This document shows, piece by piece, positions 1-6,656 of a stretch of DNA of 6,656 nt. Position 1 is the first letter of the stretch. The number at the start of each line of letters is the position of its first letter. Both the position numbers and the translations under genes were made by a program. The DNA comes from Comamonadaceae bacterium (lineage in GTDB: Bacteria > Pseudomonadota > Gammaproteobacteria > Burkholderiales > Burkholderiaceae): assembly GCA_947484245.1 (NCBI GenBank), contig CANKOT010000124.1, forward strand, positions 1-6,656. The letters run 5' to 3'. The notes below the pieces were generated by a model. The model made no database searches. It was not told where the DNA came from and saw only the letters and a program-made list of their open reading frames with translations.

Positions 1-954
1 GATGCGGTCAGTTTCGCTGCCGATGCGGGCAATCAAATCACCGGTTCGGCGACCCCCAAAGTACTCTAACGATAACTTCAGTAAATGTTGATACGTGCTG
101 GTTCTTAAATCTGCGCCGATGCGCTCCGAGACGAGCGCCAAGATGTAAGTTTTGATCCATCCCAAACCCCATGCCACGATGGCAGACGCGAGCAAAGCCA
201 AGAGGTACCAAGAGACCGTTTCTGGCTCGATGTTCTTGCCATTTTGGTAGGGTATGAGCACATCGTCCATGAGCGGCATGGTGAGGTACGGTGGCACCAA
301 GGTGGCGGCTGTTGACGCCAGTGTCAAAACAAAACCCAGCAGAAGCTGCCCCCGATAGGGCCGAGCAAATCGCCAGAGTTTGAGCAAGTTCCAGGTCGAC
401 GTTGGCGCCTGATCTTTTTCTAAGCAAACGGCACACTCCTCTGCAGAGGCATCCACCACATTCTGGCAAACAGGGCACAGGCTGTGCAGCATCTGACCGA
501 TGCCAGGCTCCGACCACTCTAAATCATTTGAAGGATGAGGCGCCGAAGATTGGCCCGAGAAAGAGGCCGCCTGAATCTGACCCAGCAGATGGTTTTCAAA
601 GCGCAATTTCCACCTGAAAACGGCTGCTTCAAGCCCCAGAGTGAAACGCCAGGCCCCCAACCGTTGGCCGCCCTGATAGAGGGCCAAGGTACCCACGCCA
701 GCGTGATCAAGTACCCGAAGGGCGAAATCTGGGGCCAAGGTCCAGAAATTCCAATTATTTTGCGCCTCATCTGCAAAGATGATCCTTTGATCGGTCAAAA
801 TAAGCAGTGTTTTTTTAAAGCTTAGTTCATCGTTCAGGTCAACCTCTAGCCAAGCTAGAACGTTTTCACCAAGGTGAACTCGCGACAACACGCCCTCCTG
901 CCAAATAAACGGCAATCCCAGCAAATCGATGGGAGGATGGGTGTTGGGGTTCAT
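1..954 (-). CDS. ABC exporter (transmembrane + presumed ATPase) with PH-like and zinc-ribbon N-terminal extension, 5' part only
   Basis: First 318 codons of a longer gene; the 3' part, including the nucleotide-binding domain, lies beyond the left edge. The ATG at 954 is preceded two codons earlier by an in-frame TGA. Residues about 20-125 form a soluble region with a bacterial PH-like look (LTDQRIIF at 53-60, then GTLALY and W-x-FTLG). A zinc ribbon follows: CPVC at 160-163 and CAVC at 174-177. From about 190 comes a type I exporter membrane domain with helices near 203-228 and 249-275. The signature EYFGGRRTGDLIARIGSETD (297-316) matches the first intracellular loop of MsbA-like exporters (YFxxRxTGDLxxRxxxDxD). 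From memory, exporters with such an extension sit beside cphA in betaproteobacteria and have been named cyanophycin metabolism-associated ABC transporters, often next to a DUF1854 gene; that neighbour would lie off the edge. It is divergent from cphA', suggesting shared control. Substrate unknown. The start is uncertain: a GTG at 891 or TTG at 888 behind an AGGAGG is an alternative. Confidence 0.88.
   Translation of the reverse strand, partial: MNPNTHPPIDLLGLPFIWQEGVLSRVHLGENVLAWLEVDLNDELSFKKTLLILTDQRIIFADEAQNNWNFWTLAPDFALRVLDHAGVGTLALYQGGQRLGAWRFTLGLEAAVFRWKLRFENHLLGQIQAASFSGQSSAPHPSNDLEWSEPGIGQMLHSLCPVCQNVVDASAEECAVCLEKDQAPTSTWNLLKLWRFARPYRGQLLLGFVLTLASTAATLVPPYLTMPLMDDVLIPYQNGKNIEPETVSWYLLALLASAIVAWGLGWIKTYILALVSERIGADLRTSTYQHLLKLSLEYFGGRRTGDLIARIGSETDRI
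894..899 (-). promoter_or_regulatory. Candidate Shine-Dalgarno inside the ABC exporter reading frame (alternative start)
   Basis: On the minus strand AGGAGG (899-894) lies 2 nt before an in-frame GTG (891-889, codon 22) and 5 nt before an in-frame TTG (888-886, codon 23). The ATG at 954 has no recognisable Shine-Dalgarno; the bases before it are a T-rich run ending in GAATTCTT. Either the gene uses the weak upstream ATG or translation starts here and the protein is about 21-22 residues shorter. Homologue N-termini would decide. Confidence 0.3.
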
Positions 955-1140: not shown

Positions 1141-3318
1141 ATGAGTTCTAAAGATATCAAATTTATTCGCATGACCCACCTAAAGGGTCCTAACATTTGG
1201 ACTTACCGTCCCGTTCTTGAAGCTTGGATCGACATTGGCGATTTGGAAGATTGCCCCTCCAACACCCTGCCCGGCTTTAACCAGCGACTTCAAAAGATGC
1301 TGCCCGGCCTCATCGAGCACCGCTGCAGTGTTGGCGAACGTGGCGGGTTTTTGCAAAGACTCACGGAGGGTACTTGGCCGGGTCACATCATGGAGCACGT
1401 GGCGCTTGAATTGCAAAATCGAGCAGGTATGCAAACTGGTTTTGGCAAAGCCAGAGAAGCAGGACCTCGAGGCATCTACAAAGTTGTCATTCGCACTCGA
1501 AACGAAGCTGTCAGCCGAGTTGCGCTACAAGCTGCGCGCGATTTGGTCATGGCAGCCATAGAAAACCGCACTTACCCAGTCAAACAAGTCATTGCCGATC
1601 TCACCCAAATGGTCGATCGCCTTTGCATCGGGCCCAGCACTGCATGCATCGTAGACGCAGCAACCGATCGCAATATTCCTTCAATTCGCCTGAATGATGG
1701 CAACTTGGTTCAACTCGGTTATGGCGCCAGCCAGCGCCGCATTTGGACCGCCGAAACTGACCAAACTAGCGCTATCGCCGAGGGGGTTTCCAAAGACAAA
1801 GACCTGACAAAGAGTTTGCTTGCCAACTGCGGTGTTCCAGTGCCCGAGGGTTGCAATGTTGCGTCGCCCGAAGAAGCGTGGCAAGCCGCACAAGAAATTG
1901 GTCTGCCAGTTTGTGTCAAGCCCGTCGACGGCAACCATGCACGCGGCGTTTCCTTAGAGCTTAGAACCCAAGCCGAAGTTGAGGCTGCCTATTATTTGGC
2001 AGAGTCTGAAGGCAGTGATGTGTTGGTAGAGCGGCATATATTTGGCGATGAGCACCGCTTGCTGGTGGTTGGCGGTAAAGTGGTTGCAGCCAACAAAGGT
2101 GAAGTGGCCAGCATCGTGGGTGATGGCATCCACAACATTGCAGAGCTTATTGAAACTCAACTCAACTCAGACCCTCGCCGCGGCGAAGAAGAAGATTTTC
2201 CGCTCGACATCATTCGTCTCAACGATCTCAGCGCTGCTACCCTTGAGCTTAAACGTCAGGGGCTTACAGGCCAAAGTGTTCCTGAAAAAGACCGCCATGT
2301 GGTGGTCATGCGCACCGGCAACATGGCCATCGATGTCACCGATTTGGTTCATCCCGATGTAGCCGAATTGGCGGCTCTTGCTGCTCGAATTGTGGGATTA
2401 GACATTGCTGGCGTCGATATGGTCGCTCTGGACATTTCCAAACCCATGAAGGCGCAAGGCGCAGCCATCGTTGAAGTCAATGCCGGCCCGGGTCTTCTCA
2501 TGCACCTTAAACCTGCAACTGGCTCACCCAGACCTGTGGGCAAAGCCATTGCCGCACATTTGTTTGTCGAAAATTCCGAATCAAGAATTCCAGTGGTAGG
2601 CATCATTGGCCAAGAAAACACAACAGGCACCAGCCACCTTATCGCATGGCTGCTGCACCTTCAAGGATTGCAAACTGGCCTCTCATCAGCCAAGGGCTTG
2701 TTTTTGGGCCAACGCTGCCTTAACGCCCAAAGCGGCATGGAATGGGAATCAGCCCAACGCTTGCTCATCAATCGATCTGTTCAGGCCGCCGTTTTTGAAA
2801 CCACCGCCAGACACTTGTTGGCGGAGGGCCTGCCCTACGACCGCTGTCAAGTAGGCGTGATCACGTCCATGCCCAAAGCAGCCGGTCTCGAAGATTTGTA
2901 CATTCAAAGCGATGAACAAATGGCCAATGTGGTCAGAACCCAAATGGACGTCGTGTTATCACAAGGCATGGCCGTGCTTAACGCTGAAGACGAAGATGTG
3001 GTCAATCTTGCTCAGTATTGCGATGGCGAAGTTACTTTTTTCGCCAGCTCTGAAGAGCACCCCCGCATCGCTCAACATCGCAGCGAAAACGGGCGTGTGG
3101 TTTTCTGGCGTAAAAATCATTTGGTCTTGGCCCAAGGTGCGCATGAAATTGAAGCCCTGAATCGCCAATTGCCTGCCATCGACAAAGTATTTAAAAACCA
3201 GCACCTCAAATGCACAGAAGTCTTGGCAGCTTCTGCCGCTGCTTGGGCTCTTGGCATTCAAACTGACCTCATCAGAGCAGGCATTAAAAGTTTTGGGCAA
3301 AGTTCTGGCGCTCACTGA
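1141..3318 (+). CDS. cphA': Truncated cyanophycin synthetase paralogue CphA' (CphA2-like: N domain + ATP-grasp, degenerate Mur-ligase domain)
   Basis: 725 aa, clearly homologous to the downstream CphA over most of its length. The N domain (about 1-160) has HIMEH at 82-86 and VALELQ behind it. GPST (164-167) begins the ATP-grasp region, with DKDLTKSLL (219-227), VKPVDGNHARGV (259-270), EHRLLVV (304-310), D426 and E445/N447 as probable metal ligands. The Mur-ligase domain starts near 484, but the P-loop GTNGKTT of CphA is here GQENTTG (490-496), without the Lys; the NIGSGDHLG segment is SMPKAAGLE; and the protein stops about 136 residues short of CphA's end, losing the C-terminal lobe. It should not be able to add Arg by the Mur mechanism. 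Other ATP-grasp differences from CphA are GNHARG for GNQGKG, loss of the His in the DPRRGDGH segment, and Leu453 for Arg439. Cyanobacterial CphA2 also lacks a working Mur site and joins beta-Asp-Arg dipeptides; that role, primer processing, or a regulatory role are possible. Start chosen at ATG 1141, where homology begins; the frame stays open to 874 but that would overlap the exporter gene. An ATG at 1171 is the alternative. Confidence 0.9.
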   Translation: MSSKDIKFIRMTHLKGPNIWTYRPVLEAWIDIGDLEDCPSNTLPGFNQRLQKMLPGLIEHRCSVGERGGFLQRLTEGTWPGHIMEHVALELQNRAGMQTGFGKAREAGPRGIYKVVIRTRNEAVSRVALQAARDLVMAAIENRTYPVKQVIADLTQMVDRLCIGPSTACIVDAATDRNIPSIRLNDGNLVQLGYGASQRRIWTAETDQTSAIAEGVSKDKDLTKSLLANCGVPVPEGCNVASPEEAWQAAQEIGLPVCVKPVDGNHARGVSLELRTQAEVEAAYYLAESEGSDVLVERHIFGDEHRLLVVGGKVVAANKGEVASIVGDGIHNIAELIETQLNSDPRRGEEEDFPLDIIRLNDLSAATLELKRQGLTGQSVPEKDRHVVVMRTGNMAIDVTDLVHPDVAELAALAARIVGLDIAGVDMVALDISKPMKAQGAAIVEVNAGPGLLMHLKPATGSPRPVGKAIAAHLFVENSESRIPVVGIIGQENTTGTSHLIAWLLHLQGLQTGLSSAKGLFLGQRCLNAQSGMEWESAQRLLINRSVQAAVFETTARHLLAEGLPYDRCQVGVITSMPKAAGLEDLYIQSDEQMANVVRTQMDVVLSQGMAVLNAEDEDVVNLAQYCDGEVTFFASSEEHPRIAQHRSENGRVVFWRKNHLVLAQGAHEIEALNRQLPAIDKVFKNQHLKCTEVLAASAAAWALGIQTDLIRAGIKSFGQSSGAH

Positions 3319-3371
3319 GCCACAGATCACACCCCCGCCTACTGACTTACACAGCAAGAACCGCTTCAATC

Positions 3372-3375
3372 AGGA
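3372..3375 (+). promoter_or_regulatory. Ribosome binding site of cphA
   Basis: AGGA lies 9 nt before the ATG at 3385. It supports that start, after which the conserved N-terminus (RIRALRGPNLW) begins at residue 5. The 66-bp gap after the cphA' stop shows no terminator-like hairpin, so co-transcription from upstream is likely. Confidence 0.6.
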
Positions 3376-3384
3376 TCAAGTTTC

Positions 3385-5970
3385 ATGGAAGTTTCAAGAA
3401 TTCGAGCTTTGAGAGGACCCAATTTATGGAGCCGCCAAACCAGCATCGAAGCCATCGTAAGCTGTGAACCCCATGAGCGCGAAATGCCCCTTGGCAATGA
3501 GTTCGAAAAGCAACTTCGACGAATTTTCCCAACAGTTGGGCCCCTAGAAGGAACACGCCCAGGTCAACCCGCCAGCATGGCACATGCCCTCGAAAAAATT
3601 ACGCTAAGTCTGCAAAACCAAGCTGGGTGCCCTGTCACATTCAGCCGTACAACTGCCACCGAGGAAGATGGCATTTACCAAGTCGTTGTTCAGTACACCG
3701 AAGAAGCCGTTGGCAAATTGGCCCTCGAATGGGCTGAGAAACTTTGTCTGGCTGTGAAAACGCAAACCGCCTTCGATTTAAATCAAGCCCTCACTGAGCT
3801 GCGCGATTTGGATGAGAACCTTCGCCTTGGACCTTCCACAGGCTCCATAGTAGATGCTGCGGTTCTCAAAGGCATCCCCTACCGTCGGCTCACTGAAGGC
3901 AGCATGGTGCAATTTGGTTGGGGCAGCAAGCAACGTCGCATCCAAGCTGCCGAAACAGACACCACCAGCGCCATTGCCGAATCGATAGCCCAGGACAAAG
4001 ACCTCACCAAATCCCTGTTGTTGGCTGCAGGGGTGCCTGTCCCAATAGGAAGGCCGGCCAAAGACTTAGAAGATGCTTGGCAGATTGCGCAAAGCATTGG
4101 ACTTCCTGTTGTGGTCAAGCCCCAAGATGGCAATCAAGGCAAGGGCGTCACTGTCAATATCATTGAGCGCGATTTGTTTAACCAAGCTTACGCAACAGCC
4201 GCCCGATATGGCGAAGTTTTGGTCGAAAAATTCTTGCCTGGTAGTGACTATCGTTTGCTGGTCGTTGGCAACAAGTTGGTAGCGGCTGCAAGACGTGAAC
4301 CCCCCTTGGTTGTTGGCGATGGCATCCTTACCGTGAAAGCCCTGGTCGACAAAGTCAATGCCGACCCGCGCCGAGGTGATGGTCATTCCACTTCACTGAC
4401 TAAAATTAAGTTCGATGACATTGCCATCGGTCGCCTGAAGCTACAAGATCTGGAACCGAATTCAGTTCCTGAAGAAGGTCGCCGCGTCATTTTGCGCAAC
4501 AACGCCAACTTGTCTACTGGTGGTACAGCCACAGACGTCACTGACGATGTTCACGCCGAAGCGGTTGCACGCGTGGTGGCTGCAGCTCAGATGGTGGGCG
4601 TTGATATTTGTGGTGTCGACGTCGTCTGCGAATCGGTCCTCAAGCCTCTTGAAGAACAAAATGGTGGCATTGTCGAAGTCAATGCTGCGCCTGGCTTGCG
4701 CATGCACATCAGCCCTTCATTTGGTAAAGGTCGCAATGTTGGCAAAGCAATCATTGACTACATGTATCCCAATGGGGAAAACGGCCGTATTCCCGTCATT
4801 GCGGTAACTGGCACCAACGGCAAAACAACCACCGTACGGCTGACGGCTCACCTCCTCAAAGCCAATCAGATGCGCGTGGGCATGACCAACTCCGACGGTG
4901 TGTACGTCAATGGTCGCCAAATTGACAATGGTGACTGCAGCGGACCACGCAGTGCAAGAAATGTGCTGATGCACCCCGATGTCGATGCTGCTGTGTTTGA
5001 AACAGCGCGAGGTGGTTTATTGCGAGAGGGCTTGGCTTTCGATCGGTGCCAAGTGGCCATCGTCACCAACATTGGCTCTGGCGATCACTTAGGCTTGAAC
5101 TACATCACCACCTTAGAAGATTTATCGGTTTTAAAACGGGTTGTTGTATTGAATGTTGCAAGCGATGGCATGGCTGTTTTGAATGCAGCCGACCCTCAAG
5201 TCGCCATGATGGCCAAGATGTGCCCTGGTGACGTCACTTTCTTCGCTCTAGACTCACATCATCCTGCATTGGCCACGCACCGAGCCCAAGGCAAGCGAGT
5301 GGTTTACACAGATAACGGCAGCATTGTGGCTCAACAGGGAAAGAAGTCATTCCGAATTCCCCTCACTGAAGTACCCCTGACACGCCAAGGACAAATTGGT
5401 TTCCAAACTGAAAATGTCTTGGCTGCAGTGGCAGCGGCTTGGGCCGTCAATGTGCCTTGGGACACCATTGCACTGGGCTTGTCCACTTTCATCAGCGACA
5501 TCCAAGGCGTGCCCGGTCGATTCAATGTATTTGATTACAAGGGTGCTACTTTGATCGCCGATTACGGTCACAACCCTGATGCCATTCAGGCCTTGGTTCA
5601 GGCTGTTGACAACATGCCCGCACAAAAAAGAGTGGTGGTCATTAGTGGTGCGGGCGATCGCCGTGATCAAGACATTCGAGATCAAACTCAAATTTTGGGC
5701 ACAGCCTTTGACGAAGTCATCTTGTACCAAGATGCTTGCCAACGTGGCCGCAGCGAAGGTGAAGTGATTCAACTGCTTCGCGAAGGTCTGAATGGTGCTG
5801 TCCGAACCCAGTATGTTCAAGACATTCAGGGGGAGTTCAACGCCATTGATACAGCCTTGGCGCGTCTTTCTGCAGGCGACTTATGCCTTATCTTGATTGA
5901 TCAGATAGAAGCTGCACTGGCCTACATTCAGGGCAAGGTGAATGAAAGTCAAGTGGCTTCAGCCAATTAA
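3385..5970 (+). CDS. cphA: Cyanophycin synthetase CphA
   Basis: 861 aa, full length for the family. It catalyses ATP-dependent alternating addition of Asp (alpha-linked backbone) and Arg (isopeptide side chain), building cytoplasmic multi-L-arginyl-poly-L-aspartate granules. N domain about 1-145. The ATP-grasp domain begins with GPSTGSIVDAA (149-159) and has DKDLTKSLL (204-212), VVKPQDGNQGKGV (243-255), SDYRLLVV (287-294), DPRRGDGH (327-334), and GVDVV with D412 plus EVNAAPGLRMH (431-441) for metal and substrate binding. The Mur-ligase-like domain starts near 470 with P-loop GTNGKTTT (476-483), ETARGGLLREGL (539-550) and NIGSGDHLG (562-570). The C-terminal lobe has PGRFN (710-714), DYGHNPDAIQAL (726-737) and GAGDRRDQDI (755-764). 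All expected ligase motifs are present, so both activities should be intact. In the N domain, the site aligned with HIMEH of CphA' is HALEK (67-71), lacking the second His, so autonomous primer making is unlikely. It is second in a probable operon with cphA', and its last 12 bp overlap the convergent acyltransferase gene. Confidence 0.96.
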   Translation: MEVSRIRALRGPNLWSRQTSIEAIVSCEPHEREMPLGNEFEKQLRRIFPTVGPLEGTRPGQPASMAHALEKITLSLQNQAGCPVTFSRTTATEEDGIYQVVVQYTEEAVGKLALEWAEKLCLAVKTQTAFDLNQALTELRDLDENLRLGPSTGSIVDAAVLKGIPYRRLTEGSMVQFGWGSKQRRIQAAETDTTSAIAESIAQDKDLTKSLLLAAGVPVPIGRPAKDLEDAWQIAQSIGLPVVVKPQDGNQGKGVTVNIIERDLFNQAYATAARYGEVLVEKFLPGSDYRLLVVGNKLVAAARREPPLVVGDGILTVKALVDKVNADPRRGDGHSTSLTKIKFDDIAIGRLKLQDLEPNSVPEEGRRVILRNNANLSTGGTATDVTDDVHAEAVARVVAAAQMVGVDICGVDVVCESVLKPLEEQNGGIVEVNAAPGLRMHISPSFGKGRNVGKAIIDYMYPNGENGRIPVIAVTGTNGKTTTVRLTAHLLKANQMRVGMTNSDGVYVNGRQIDNGDCSGPRSARNVLMHPDVDAAVFETARGGLLREGLAFDRCQVAIVTNIGSGDHLGLNYITTLEDLSVLKRVVVLNVASDGMAVLNAADPQVAMMAKMCPGDVTFFALDSHHPALATHRAQGKRVVYTDNGSIVAQQGKKSFRIPLTEVPLTRQGQIGFQTENVLAAVAAAWAVNVPWDTIALGLSTFISDIQGVPGRFNVFDYKGATLIADYGHNPDAIQALVQAVDNMPAQKRVVVISGAGDRRDQDIRDQTQILGTAFDEVILYQDACQRGRSEGEVIQLLREGLNGAVRTQYVQDIQGEFNAIDTALARLSAGDLCLILIDQIEAALAYIQGKVNESQVASAN

Positions 5971-6656
5971 CATGACACCCGTACAGGTTGCCACAAGCGT
6001 GGCAGCCCACTGTAAGCATCGCGTCCAAGTCGGCTTTGGCGTTTCAATGGCCTGGTGAATCAATTGCCCCATCCAAACCGACAGTCCGAATGAAACCCCT
6101 AAGCCCACTGCGTTGACGCTTATGTTTTCAGGCCAAAAATTAAAGACCACCGCACTCACTAATAAACTGACGCTGAAGTGAATGAGGAAAATGGCGTAAG
6201 AAGCGTTTGACAGCTCGCGAATCCACTTCCATTTGAAGTACTGAATGGCATTGCAATCATTTGCCTCATACCAGCACAACAACAAAGCCGTTGCAATGGC
6301 CAGCATCAGTCTGTCTCTTGGGTGGTATGCCATAGCAACAACGCCAACGATGAAAATCAGCAGCCCTAAATTTCGCACACTGAATTTGAAACCAGCGGAG
6401 CGCCACGATCCAACGCACAAACCAAGCCCATAAGCACCAAAGAAATAAGCGCCCCACATTTCACCCAAAGGATTGAGATTCCAAATAAAAATTGAACACA
6501 AGGTGAGCATCAACCAAAAGCCAAATGCCTTGCGCACGACAGAACCCTTGCCCGAAATACCTTGCCAAGCCTGTGCAAGCGACGCACAAGCCATCGCCAT
6601 TGCAAACAGTTGAAAATCTATGGCGACATACCAAACGCCCGCTGAAAAAGCTTCTA
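5959..6656 (-). CDS. Acyltransferase 3 (OafA/YrhL-type) membrane protein, C-terminal part
   Basis: The last 231 or so codons of a gene entering from the right edge; the stop is TGA at 5961-5959. The frame is open through 6656, and the ATG at 6600 is internal, because conserved-looking sequence (SAGVWYVAIDFQLFA) precedes it. This resembles the (L/V)WYLxIDFQ-type segment of acyltransferase 3 proteins, and SYAIFLIHFSVSLL further on matches their SYxxYLxHxP-like late helix. About eight hydrophobic segments are visible, consistent with a multi-pass inner-membrane enzyme. Family members O-acylate polysaccharides, lipid A sugars or other cell-surface carbohydrates; the N-terminal catalytic His region is outside the window. 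It converges on cphA with a 12-bp overlap, so it is not in the cyanophycin operon, and its substrate cannot be told from the sequence. Confidence 0.82.
   Translation of the reverse strand, partial: EAFSAGVWYVAIDFQLFAMAMACASLAQAWQGISGKGSVVRKAFGFWLMLTLCSIFIWNLNPLGEMWGAYFFGAYGLGLCVGSWRSAGFKFSVRNLGLLIFIVGVVAMAYHPRDRLMLAIATALLLCWYEANDCNAIQYFKWKWIRELSNASYAIFLIHFSVSLLVSAVVFNFWPENISVNAVGLGVSFGLSVWMGQLIHQAIETPKPTWTRCLQWAATLVATCTGVMLIG
5986..6007. terminator. Stem-loop after cphA, possible bidirectional terminator or mRNA 3' end
   Basis: GGTTGCCAC (5986-5994) pairs with GTGGCAGCC (5999-6007) around AAGC: nine pairs including one G-T wobble, starting 16 nt past the cphA stop. No T run follows on either strand, so it is not a classical intrinsic terminator. 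It lies within the last codons of the convergent acyltransferase gene, so it must also satisfy that coding sequence. Confidence 0.35.

Follow-up and report, generated by a model that had tools for sequence, protein, structure and literature searches.

The stretch of DNA studied here, referred to as the window, comprises positions 1 to 6,656 of contig CANKOT010000124.1 of a Comamonadaceae bacterium (assembly GCA_947484245.1), whose closest relatives are Limnohabitans and other Comamonadaceae. It carries, in tandem on the forward strand, two paralogous genes of the cyanophycin synthetase family, the products of which we call CphA' and CphA. The two proteins retain complementary sets of active-site residues. 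The CphA' gene (1141..3318, +) encodes 725 residues from an ATG at 1141 and comprises an N domain, a G domain, and a truncated M domain. The CphA gene (3385..5970, +; 861 residues from an ATG at 3385) encodes a synthetase in which the M motifs and the aspartate site are intact but the hydrolase site of the N domain is absent. CphA passes the cyanophycin synthetase equivalog model TIGR02068 (969.5 bits; cut-off, 850). CphA' scores 703.7 bits against that model, under the curated cut-off, and passes the broader subfamily model NF010623 (987.6 bits; cut-off, 877). The predicted structure of CphA has a predicted local distance difference test (pLDDT) value of 80.8, and the model of CphA', predicted with confidence, superposes on the SuCphA1-cyanophycin complex 7txv.

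Conservation was evaluated over 156 CphA' frames: 80 named loci (the best 80 of 579 confirmed candidates), 72 pair loci and locus L177 from an even draw of 300 Burkholderiales genomes (the order draw), and 3 loci from a class draw of 369 genomes, 18 of which had a match. In the order draw, 111 of the 300 genomes had a match and about 102 of those were not single-chain; the 72 loci and L177 were fetched out of this latter group and may overlap in species with the 80 named loci. The window's own rows stand outside the counts of 156 CphA' and 150 CphA. The 150 CphA rows include two fragments of a frame-broken CphA (L036), both of which are excluded from the 148-row set. Loci of a third type (L086-L088, six proteins) were kept separate, except in the 153-row CphA counts, which include three of these proteins. 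The 19 single-chain rows are those left from 25 single or other rows after removal of three third-type rows, one row that is not CphA1 (L172), and two fragments (L180 and L181).

CphA follows CphA' on the same strand in 149 of the 156 loci; the remaining 7 lie on contigs that stop at CphA' or a short way beyond it (at L177, the start of CphA can still be read before the contig end). No pair-type CphA without CphA' was found among the fetched loci, the three listed cases being the third-type loci L086-L088. At ten loci inspected, the two genes are separated by 14-67 bases, with CphA' first, or share a single base, and therefore both proteins are probably made together. Pairs of the Burkholderiales type also occur in records titled Singulisphaera, Akkermansia, Alphaproteobacteria, and Desulfovibrionaceae (L005, L031, L046, and L080), which are likely mislabelled bins.

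The N-domain site of SuCphA1 (Synechocystis UTEX2470) has the form Cx19HxxEH, in which C59, H79, and H83 are metal ligands and E82 is the base. H57, F67, R70, and E87 surround this site, and S603 and E607 of the M domain contact the polymer (PMC9262961). The original prediction placed such a hidden hydrolase in some cyanobacterial CphA1 enzymes; the site is not mainly cyanobacterial, as the motif is reported in 83% of nr70 CphA1 (PMC9262961). All eight N-site residues align with identical residues in the window's CphA' and are invariant in the 156 CphA' frames. H60 and C62 (1318..1326, +) correspond to H57 and C59, so that C62 would be the third metal ligand, and F70 and R73 (1348..1359, +) correspond to F67 and R70. 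The motif HIMEH, at residues 82-86 (1384..1398, +) on helix 80-94 of the model, would supply the ligands H82 and H86 and the general base E85 (H79, H83, and E82 in SuCphA1). E90 (1408..1410, +) corresponds to SuCphA1 E87, which belongs to the hydrogen-bond network of the second His. The eight columns all fall among the 27 of 153 N-domain columns in which at least 99% of CphA' share one residue (hypergeometric, 3.6e-7).

In CphA, the corresponding motif is HALEK, at residues 67-71 (3583..3597, +), a remnant in which the second His is replaced and from which the Cys-bearing segment is absent. VALELQ directly follows HIMEH in CphA', and ITLSLQ directly follows HALEK in CphA. The exact C-x19-HxxEH pattern occurs in 156/156 CphA' versus 0/148 paired CphA, and in neither of the two L036 fragments. 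More than a single His is lost in CphA: none of the 153 rows has a residue in the Cys column, and the second His has often been replaced by A, F, K, L, or V. Remnants of HxxE are common, with the first His kept in 129 of the 153 rows and the Glu in 116. The original prediction had noted HIMEH and HALEK, both of which we find at those residues and positions, and had proposed complementary motif losses; the survey bears this out, extending it to the other ligands of the site in CphA', which the earlier reader could not check. A chance HxxEH is ruled out by this distribution together with the conservation of the columns. We also rule out that CphA' is a decaying pseudogene, as the eight site residues are invariant over 156 frames, 54 of which, when aligned, span down to 56% identity with the window.

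The G domains differ in the opposite direction. In TeCphA1, R323 and N394 lie at the beta-carboxylate of the incoming Asp, R458 lies at its alpha-carboxylate, and S396 is beside it (PMC9427784). CphA' has G320 at the R323 position (2098..2100, +; Gly in 153/156) and L453 at the R458 position (2497..2499, +; Leu in 151/156). Its aspartate-binding loop (2296..2331, +) is shortened, with 12 rather than 17 residues in 155/156 and S396 absent from all 156; N394 is aligned with Asn in 146/156. Adames (2013) reportedly noted that a large part of a "J-loop" is absent from the CphA' of Ralstonia eutropha; the shorter loop at S396 would agree with this. In CphA, by contrast, Arg is present at the R323 position in 152/152 and at the R458 position in 151/151 rows that have a residue there, counts that each take in three third-type rows; the window's CphA retains the latter as R439 (4699..4701, +). 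The aspartate-binding residues and the catalytic R309 are retained in CphA with exceptions only in cut or broken frames. Residues of the ATP site are retained in the G domain of CphA' (K220 in 155/156; K261 and R309 in 156/156).

The exception to this pattern is H267, the catalytic His of the G-domain P-loop. It is Q251 in the window's CphA (4135..4137, +), and in the survey Gln occupies this position in 145 and His in 4 of the 149 CphA rows with a letter; CphA' has His in 138 and Arg in 16 of 156. A His267-to-Ala mutant has been used as a G-dead form (PMC9262961). The claim that CphA keeps both ligase activities may thus hold as far as the aspartate-binding residues and the M motif are concerned, but not for this His. 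Gln267 may be tolerated, as it also occurs in a single-chain Chryseobacterium CphA1 and in the six third-type proteins (L086-L088), where the N site is dead and the other ligase residues are intact. Gln267 seems to recur alongside a dead N site, and a dead G domain need not follow. A composite site in which CphA' lends its His267 to CphA is weakened as an explanation, because the account of TeCphA1 used here names E215 alone as a contribution of the neighbouring protomer (PMC9427784). This cross-dimer Glu is mostly gone from both paralogues, which have Glu at 214 instead (residues 214-215 in CphA' and 199-200 in CphA).

The M domain of CphA' has a degenerate P-loop, GQENTTGTS (2608..2634, +), where CphA1 has GTNGKTTT. 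In CphA, the P-loop GTNGKTT (4810..4830, +) is intact, D567-H568 (5083..5088, +) correspond to SuCphA1 D585 and H586, both of which are mutated in the M-dead form, and the Mur ligase C-terminal (lid) domain, Pfam PF02875 (5515..5892, +), is present, whereas it is missing from CphA'. K499, D585, and H586 occur together in 146/146 CphA rows that are neither cut nor broken (4/150 are). In CphA', all three are kept in 18/156, exactly the 18 that are full length, and the other 138 are without the M motif and the lid length. The 12 named CphA' with an intact M motif belong to Cupriavidus, Ralstonia, and Achromobacter. At least five changes of the M state are needed to fit a FastTree phylogeny of CphA', on which the hydrolase site is constant throughout. 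Only 11 of the 248 columns of the M remnant reach 99%, and among them are R599 and D603 (2935..2949, +; Arg and Asp each in 156/156), which align with S603 and E607, the cyanophycin contacts at the hydrolase site. The invariance of this putative wall of the hydrolase site offers a reason for keeping a dead M core in CphA'. An acidic residue at the E607 position is uncommon in CphA (Glu in 20/148). The two-protein split suggested by the original prediction therefore appears sound at the level of sequence but was drawn too narrowly, as CphA' has lost not only M-domain function sites but also the aspartate-binding residues of the G domain.

The two paralogues share a common origin. In a quick G-domain tree of 91 rows, from which the trait columns were removed and which was drawn midpoint with Shimodaira-Hasegawa-like approximate likelihood ratio test (SH-aLRT) support only, CphA' (31 rows; support, 97) and CphA (31 rows; 99) each occupy one side of a branch. 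These two groups unite (96) to the exclusion of single-chain and third-type enzymes (support for the single-chain group, 72), and separate recruitment of CphA' is rejected on these grounds. One tandem duplication, followed by reciprocal loss, would be the simplest reading of this tree. The single-chain CphA1 of the order and class draws have the hydrolase ligands, His267, the aspartate site, and the M motif in one chain (19/19). Of eight named plasmid-borne CphA1, six have the N motif and an annotated cyanophycinase in the stretch shown; those of Chryseobacterium and Deinococcus deserti (L187 and L189) have neither in the stretch shown.

Two further arrangements were observed. In addition to the usual pair, three Burkholderiales genomes (L086-L088) have another locus, where a CphA-like gene is found on each strand. 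The N site is dead and position 267 is Gln in all six of the encoded proteins, and a cyanophycinase gene adjoins in two of the three genomes. On plasmids of Deinococcus, Roseateles, and Ruegeria (L182, L183, and L185), a Mur ligase family protein is encoded after a single-chain cphA, directly or behind other cph genes. Its P-loop is intact, and its length is 578 and 601 residues in two cases, the third being cut by the stretch.

Upstream of the pair, a divergent ATP-binding cassette (ABC) transporter gene (1..954, -) is cut by the window edge. Its 318-residue frame matches NF052233 ("cyanophycin metabolism-associated ABC transporter") with an E value of 4.9e-108 and 362.5 bits, under the whole-protein cut-off of 880. 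The CphA' frame is open from a GTG at 874 (814 residues), i.e., 89 codons upstream of the ATG at 1141, and this extension (874-1140) overlaps the start of the ABC gene. The 725-residue product is likelier, because 11 of 14 aligned rows, the window included, start at that ATG and 3 are longer. Downstream of CphA there is a partial, weakly acyltransferase-like frame (5959-6600, -). Among the best 80 loci of 579, a relative of the ABC transporter lies upstream of CphA' in 77 (at L058, on the other strand), and the other 3 loci begin close to CphA'.

The same gene company was evaluated in 50 genomes chosen from the draw lists (20 with the pair, 20 single-chain, and 10 without CphA; G552, counted among the single-chain genomes, does not truly carry CphA1). 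NF052233 and NF052234 (DUF1854) each exceed their cut-offs in 20/20 pair genomes, 0/20 single-chain genomes, and 0/10 genomes without CphA. The DUF1854 gene adjoins the ABC gene (e.g., L007:3011-3508, -), and both are equally strict in their association with the pair. This company is not itself new, as NCBI already has curated names for both neighbours. Cyanophycinase (TIGR02069) exceeds the cut-off in 3/20 pair genomes, 19/20 single-chain genomes, and 0/10 genomes without CphA, and in two of the three pair genomes it lies beside an extra third-type locus. TIGR02069 also passes in 6 of 25 further pair genomes, 4 of which are Limnohabitans.

We conclude, with a probability of roughly 60%, that CphA' is a non-polymerising, primer-making hydrolase partner or subunit of CphA. 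One trifunctional cyanophycin synthetase would have been duplicated in tandem, and the copies would have divided its active sites. CphA would be the polymerase, without a hydrolase site, its G domain adding Asp (with Gln267 in place of His) and its M domain adding Arg. CphA', no longer polymerising, would retain the N-domain site, a zinc-peptidase-like endo-cyanophycinase in which the M-domain piece forms one wall, and would bind metal there. It would provide CphA with short primers by cutting early chains, acting in trans or as part of a mixed oligomer. The primer-dependent TmCphA1 was made primer-independent in trans by SuCphA1 whose G and M sites were dead, or by the solubilised N domain of SuCphA1 alone (PMC9262961). 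We favour a primer-making partner because CphA' has the sequence make-up of this N-active, ligase-dead form and CphA has that of its partner.

Several observations weigh against this conclusion. A pure hydrolase would not need the ATP site that the G domain of CphA' retains, and neither this site nor the M motif of 18/156 CphA' is explained by primer making; "non-polymerising" is accordingly least certain for Cupriavidus, Ralstonia, and Achromobacter, given those 18 full-length proteins. SuCphA1 contacts its substrate through E90; at that position 109 of 156 CphA' have Asn and 26 have Thr (Asn is also found there in 10/19 single-chain enzymes). The Arg that aligns with S603 is not peculiar to CphA', as 126/148 CphA also have it. 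In CphA itself, Gln occupies position 267, where Ala kills G activity. A dead N site without any partner is found in two of the eight plasmid-borne enzymes and in the solved Tatumella morbirosei and Acinetobacter baylyi enzymes, so that a CphA without a hydrolase site does not by itself need CphA'. Finally, wild-type R. eutropha is reported to have two homologues and no observed cyanophycin (PMC11362209, citing Adames 2013).

Other roles for CphA' have to be considered. It could be the missing cyanophycinase of these bacteria, degrading stored cyanophycin rather than making primers. This would fit the rarity of a recognisable cyanophycinase in pair genomes (3/20 and 6/25, versus 19/20 single-chain genomes) and the published finding of one in 3% of cphA1-bearing beta-proteobacterial genomes, for which isozymes not yet recognised were suggested (PMC10206079). 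However, a pair coexists with a cyanophycinase that exceeds the cut-off in four Limnohabitans genomes of that set of 25, among them Rim11, a near relative of the window. The known activity of the N site is described as slow and endo (PMC9262961), and genes 14-67 bases apart or overlapping are probably expressed together. We consider this role unlikely. It is likewise unlikely that the G domain of CphA' joins something other than free Asp, such as beta-Asp-Arg dipeptides (like CphA2) or a modified residue, with the hydrolase site being secondary. The ATP site is conserved while the Asp-binding residues have changed uniformly (Gly in 153, Leu in 151, and loop length in 155 of 156), which such a substrate might explain, and CphA2 is also described as being without the M P-loop and lid (PMC9427784). 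On the other hand, H267 is Arg in 16/156 CphA', and the N motif, which CphA2 lacks according to the cited description (PMC9262961), is present in 156/156.

A further possibility concerns the gene company, in that DUF1854, the ABC transporter, CphA', and CphA may form a system to make, cut, and export the polymer rather than to store it. CphA would build the chain, CphA' would cut oligomers of a short, defined length from it, and these would leave the cell through the dedicated, exporter-like ABC protein. If true, this would explain the transporter in 20/20 pair genomes, the scarcity of a recognisable cyanophycinase, and the report of R. eutropha without observed cyanophycin, but we regard it as quite improbable. 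Very unlikely, in our view, is a pseudoenzyme role, structural or regulatory, for CphA' within a mixed oligomer, with an N site that binds chains and does not cut them. Most CphA' have damage at the G site as well as at the M site, with the scaffold kept, and a residue of the neighbouring protomer is reported to reach the G site in TeCphA1 (PMC9427784), but the general base E85, not needed for mere binding, is present in 156/156.

If CphA' is indeed the primer-making partner of CphA, "cyanophycin synthetase" is a misleading name for most CphA'. The balance between building and cutting by CphA1 is described as not settable by expression, because both activities are in one protein (PMC9262961). 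In the pair, the cutting site is on its own protein, and this limit on separate control seems to be lifted. The pair is a natural test of how primer supply controls polymer synthesis and a possible tool for cyanophycin production. It also offers a worked case, in freshwater bacteria, of how the sites of a three-site enzyme are shared out once it has been duplicated. Two puzzles can now be put to the test, namely the presence of two cphA genes in many beta-proteobacteria and the ability of these bacteria to do without a recognised cyanophycinase.

Pairs of cphA genes are already known in print. Neighbouring copies in a Group 1 cluster with an ABC transporter and no cphB are described from Accumulibacter and other sludge bacteria, both Accumulibacter copies being expressed, and for Tetrasphaera, outside Burkholderiales, the same work reports two serial copies together with a cphB (PMC10687191); adjacent genes named CphA1 and CphA2 are reported from Sideroxydans (PMC5178258), and two cphA copies from Herminiimonas (PMC5670224). 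The division of the hydrolase, aspartate, and M sites over two proteins is something that we did not find in the open literature searched, a body that leaves out most subscription papers.

Among characterised systems, cyanobacterial CphA2 (7ta5 and 8fxh) shares with CphA' the loss of the M P-loop and lid (PMC9427784), but it is described as being without the N motif and as polymerising beta-Asp-Arg, whereas CphA' has the motif and scores 462 bits to CphA1 7lg5 versus 186 to CphA2 8fxh. The CphA1 enzymes of T. morbirosei (primer-dependent) and A. baylyi (7lgn and 7lgm) resemble CphA in that the N site is not intact and the ligase sites are present. They retain His267, however, whereas the paired CphA mostly has Gln and has CphA' alongside. 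SuCphA1 (7lg5 and 7txv) has the same fold, domain order, and eight N-site residues as CphA', but it holds the hydrolase, G, and M sites in one chain (PMC9262961); here they are split over two, with CphA' lacking the Asp-binding residues and the M motif. A further likeness is to engineered forms of SuCphA1, in which a G-dead M-dead enzyme or the N domain was supplied in trans, or heterodimers carried the active N site on the other protomer (PMC9262961). CphA' resembles the N-active, ligase-dead form and CphA the N-dead, ligase-active form. Those proteins are laboratory constructs, whereas this is a natural pair, present in about 102 of the 300 Burkholderiales genomes drawn.

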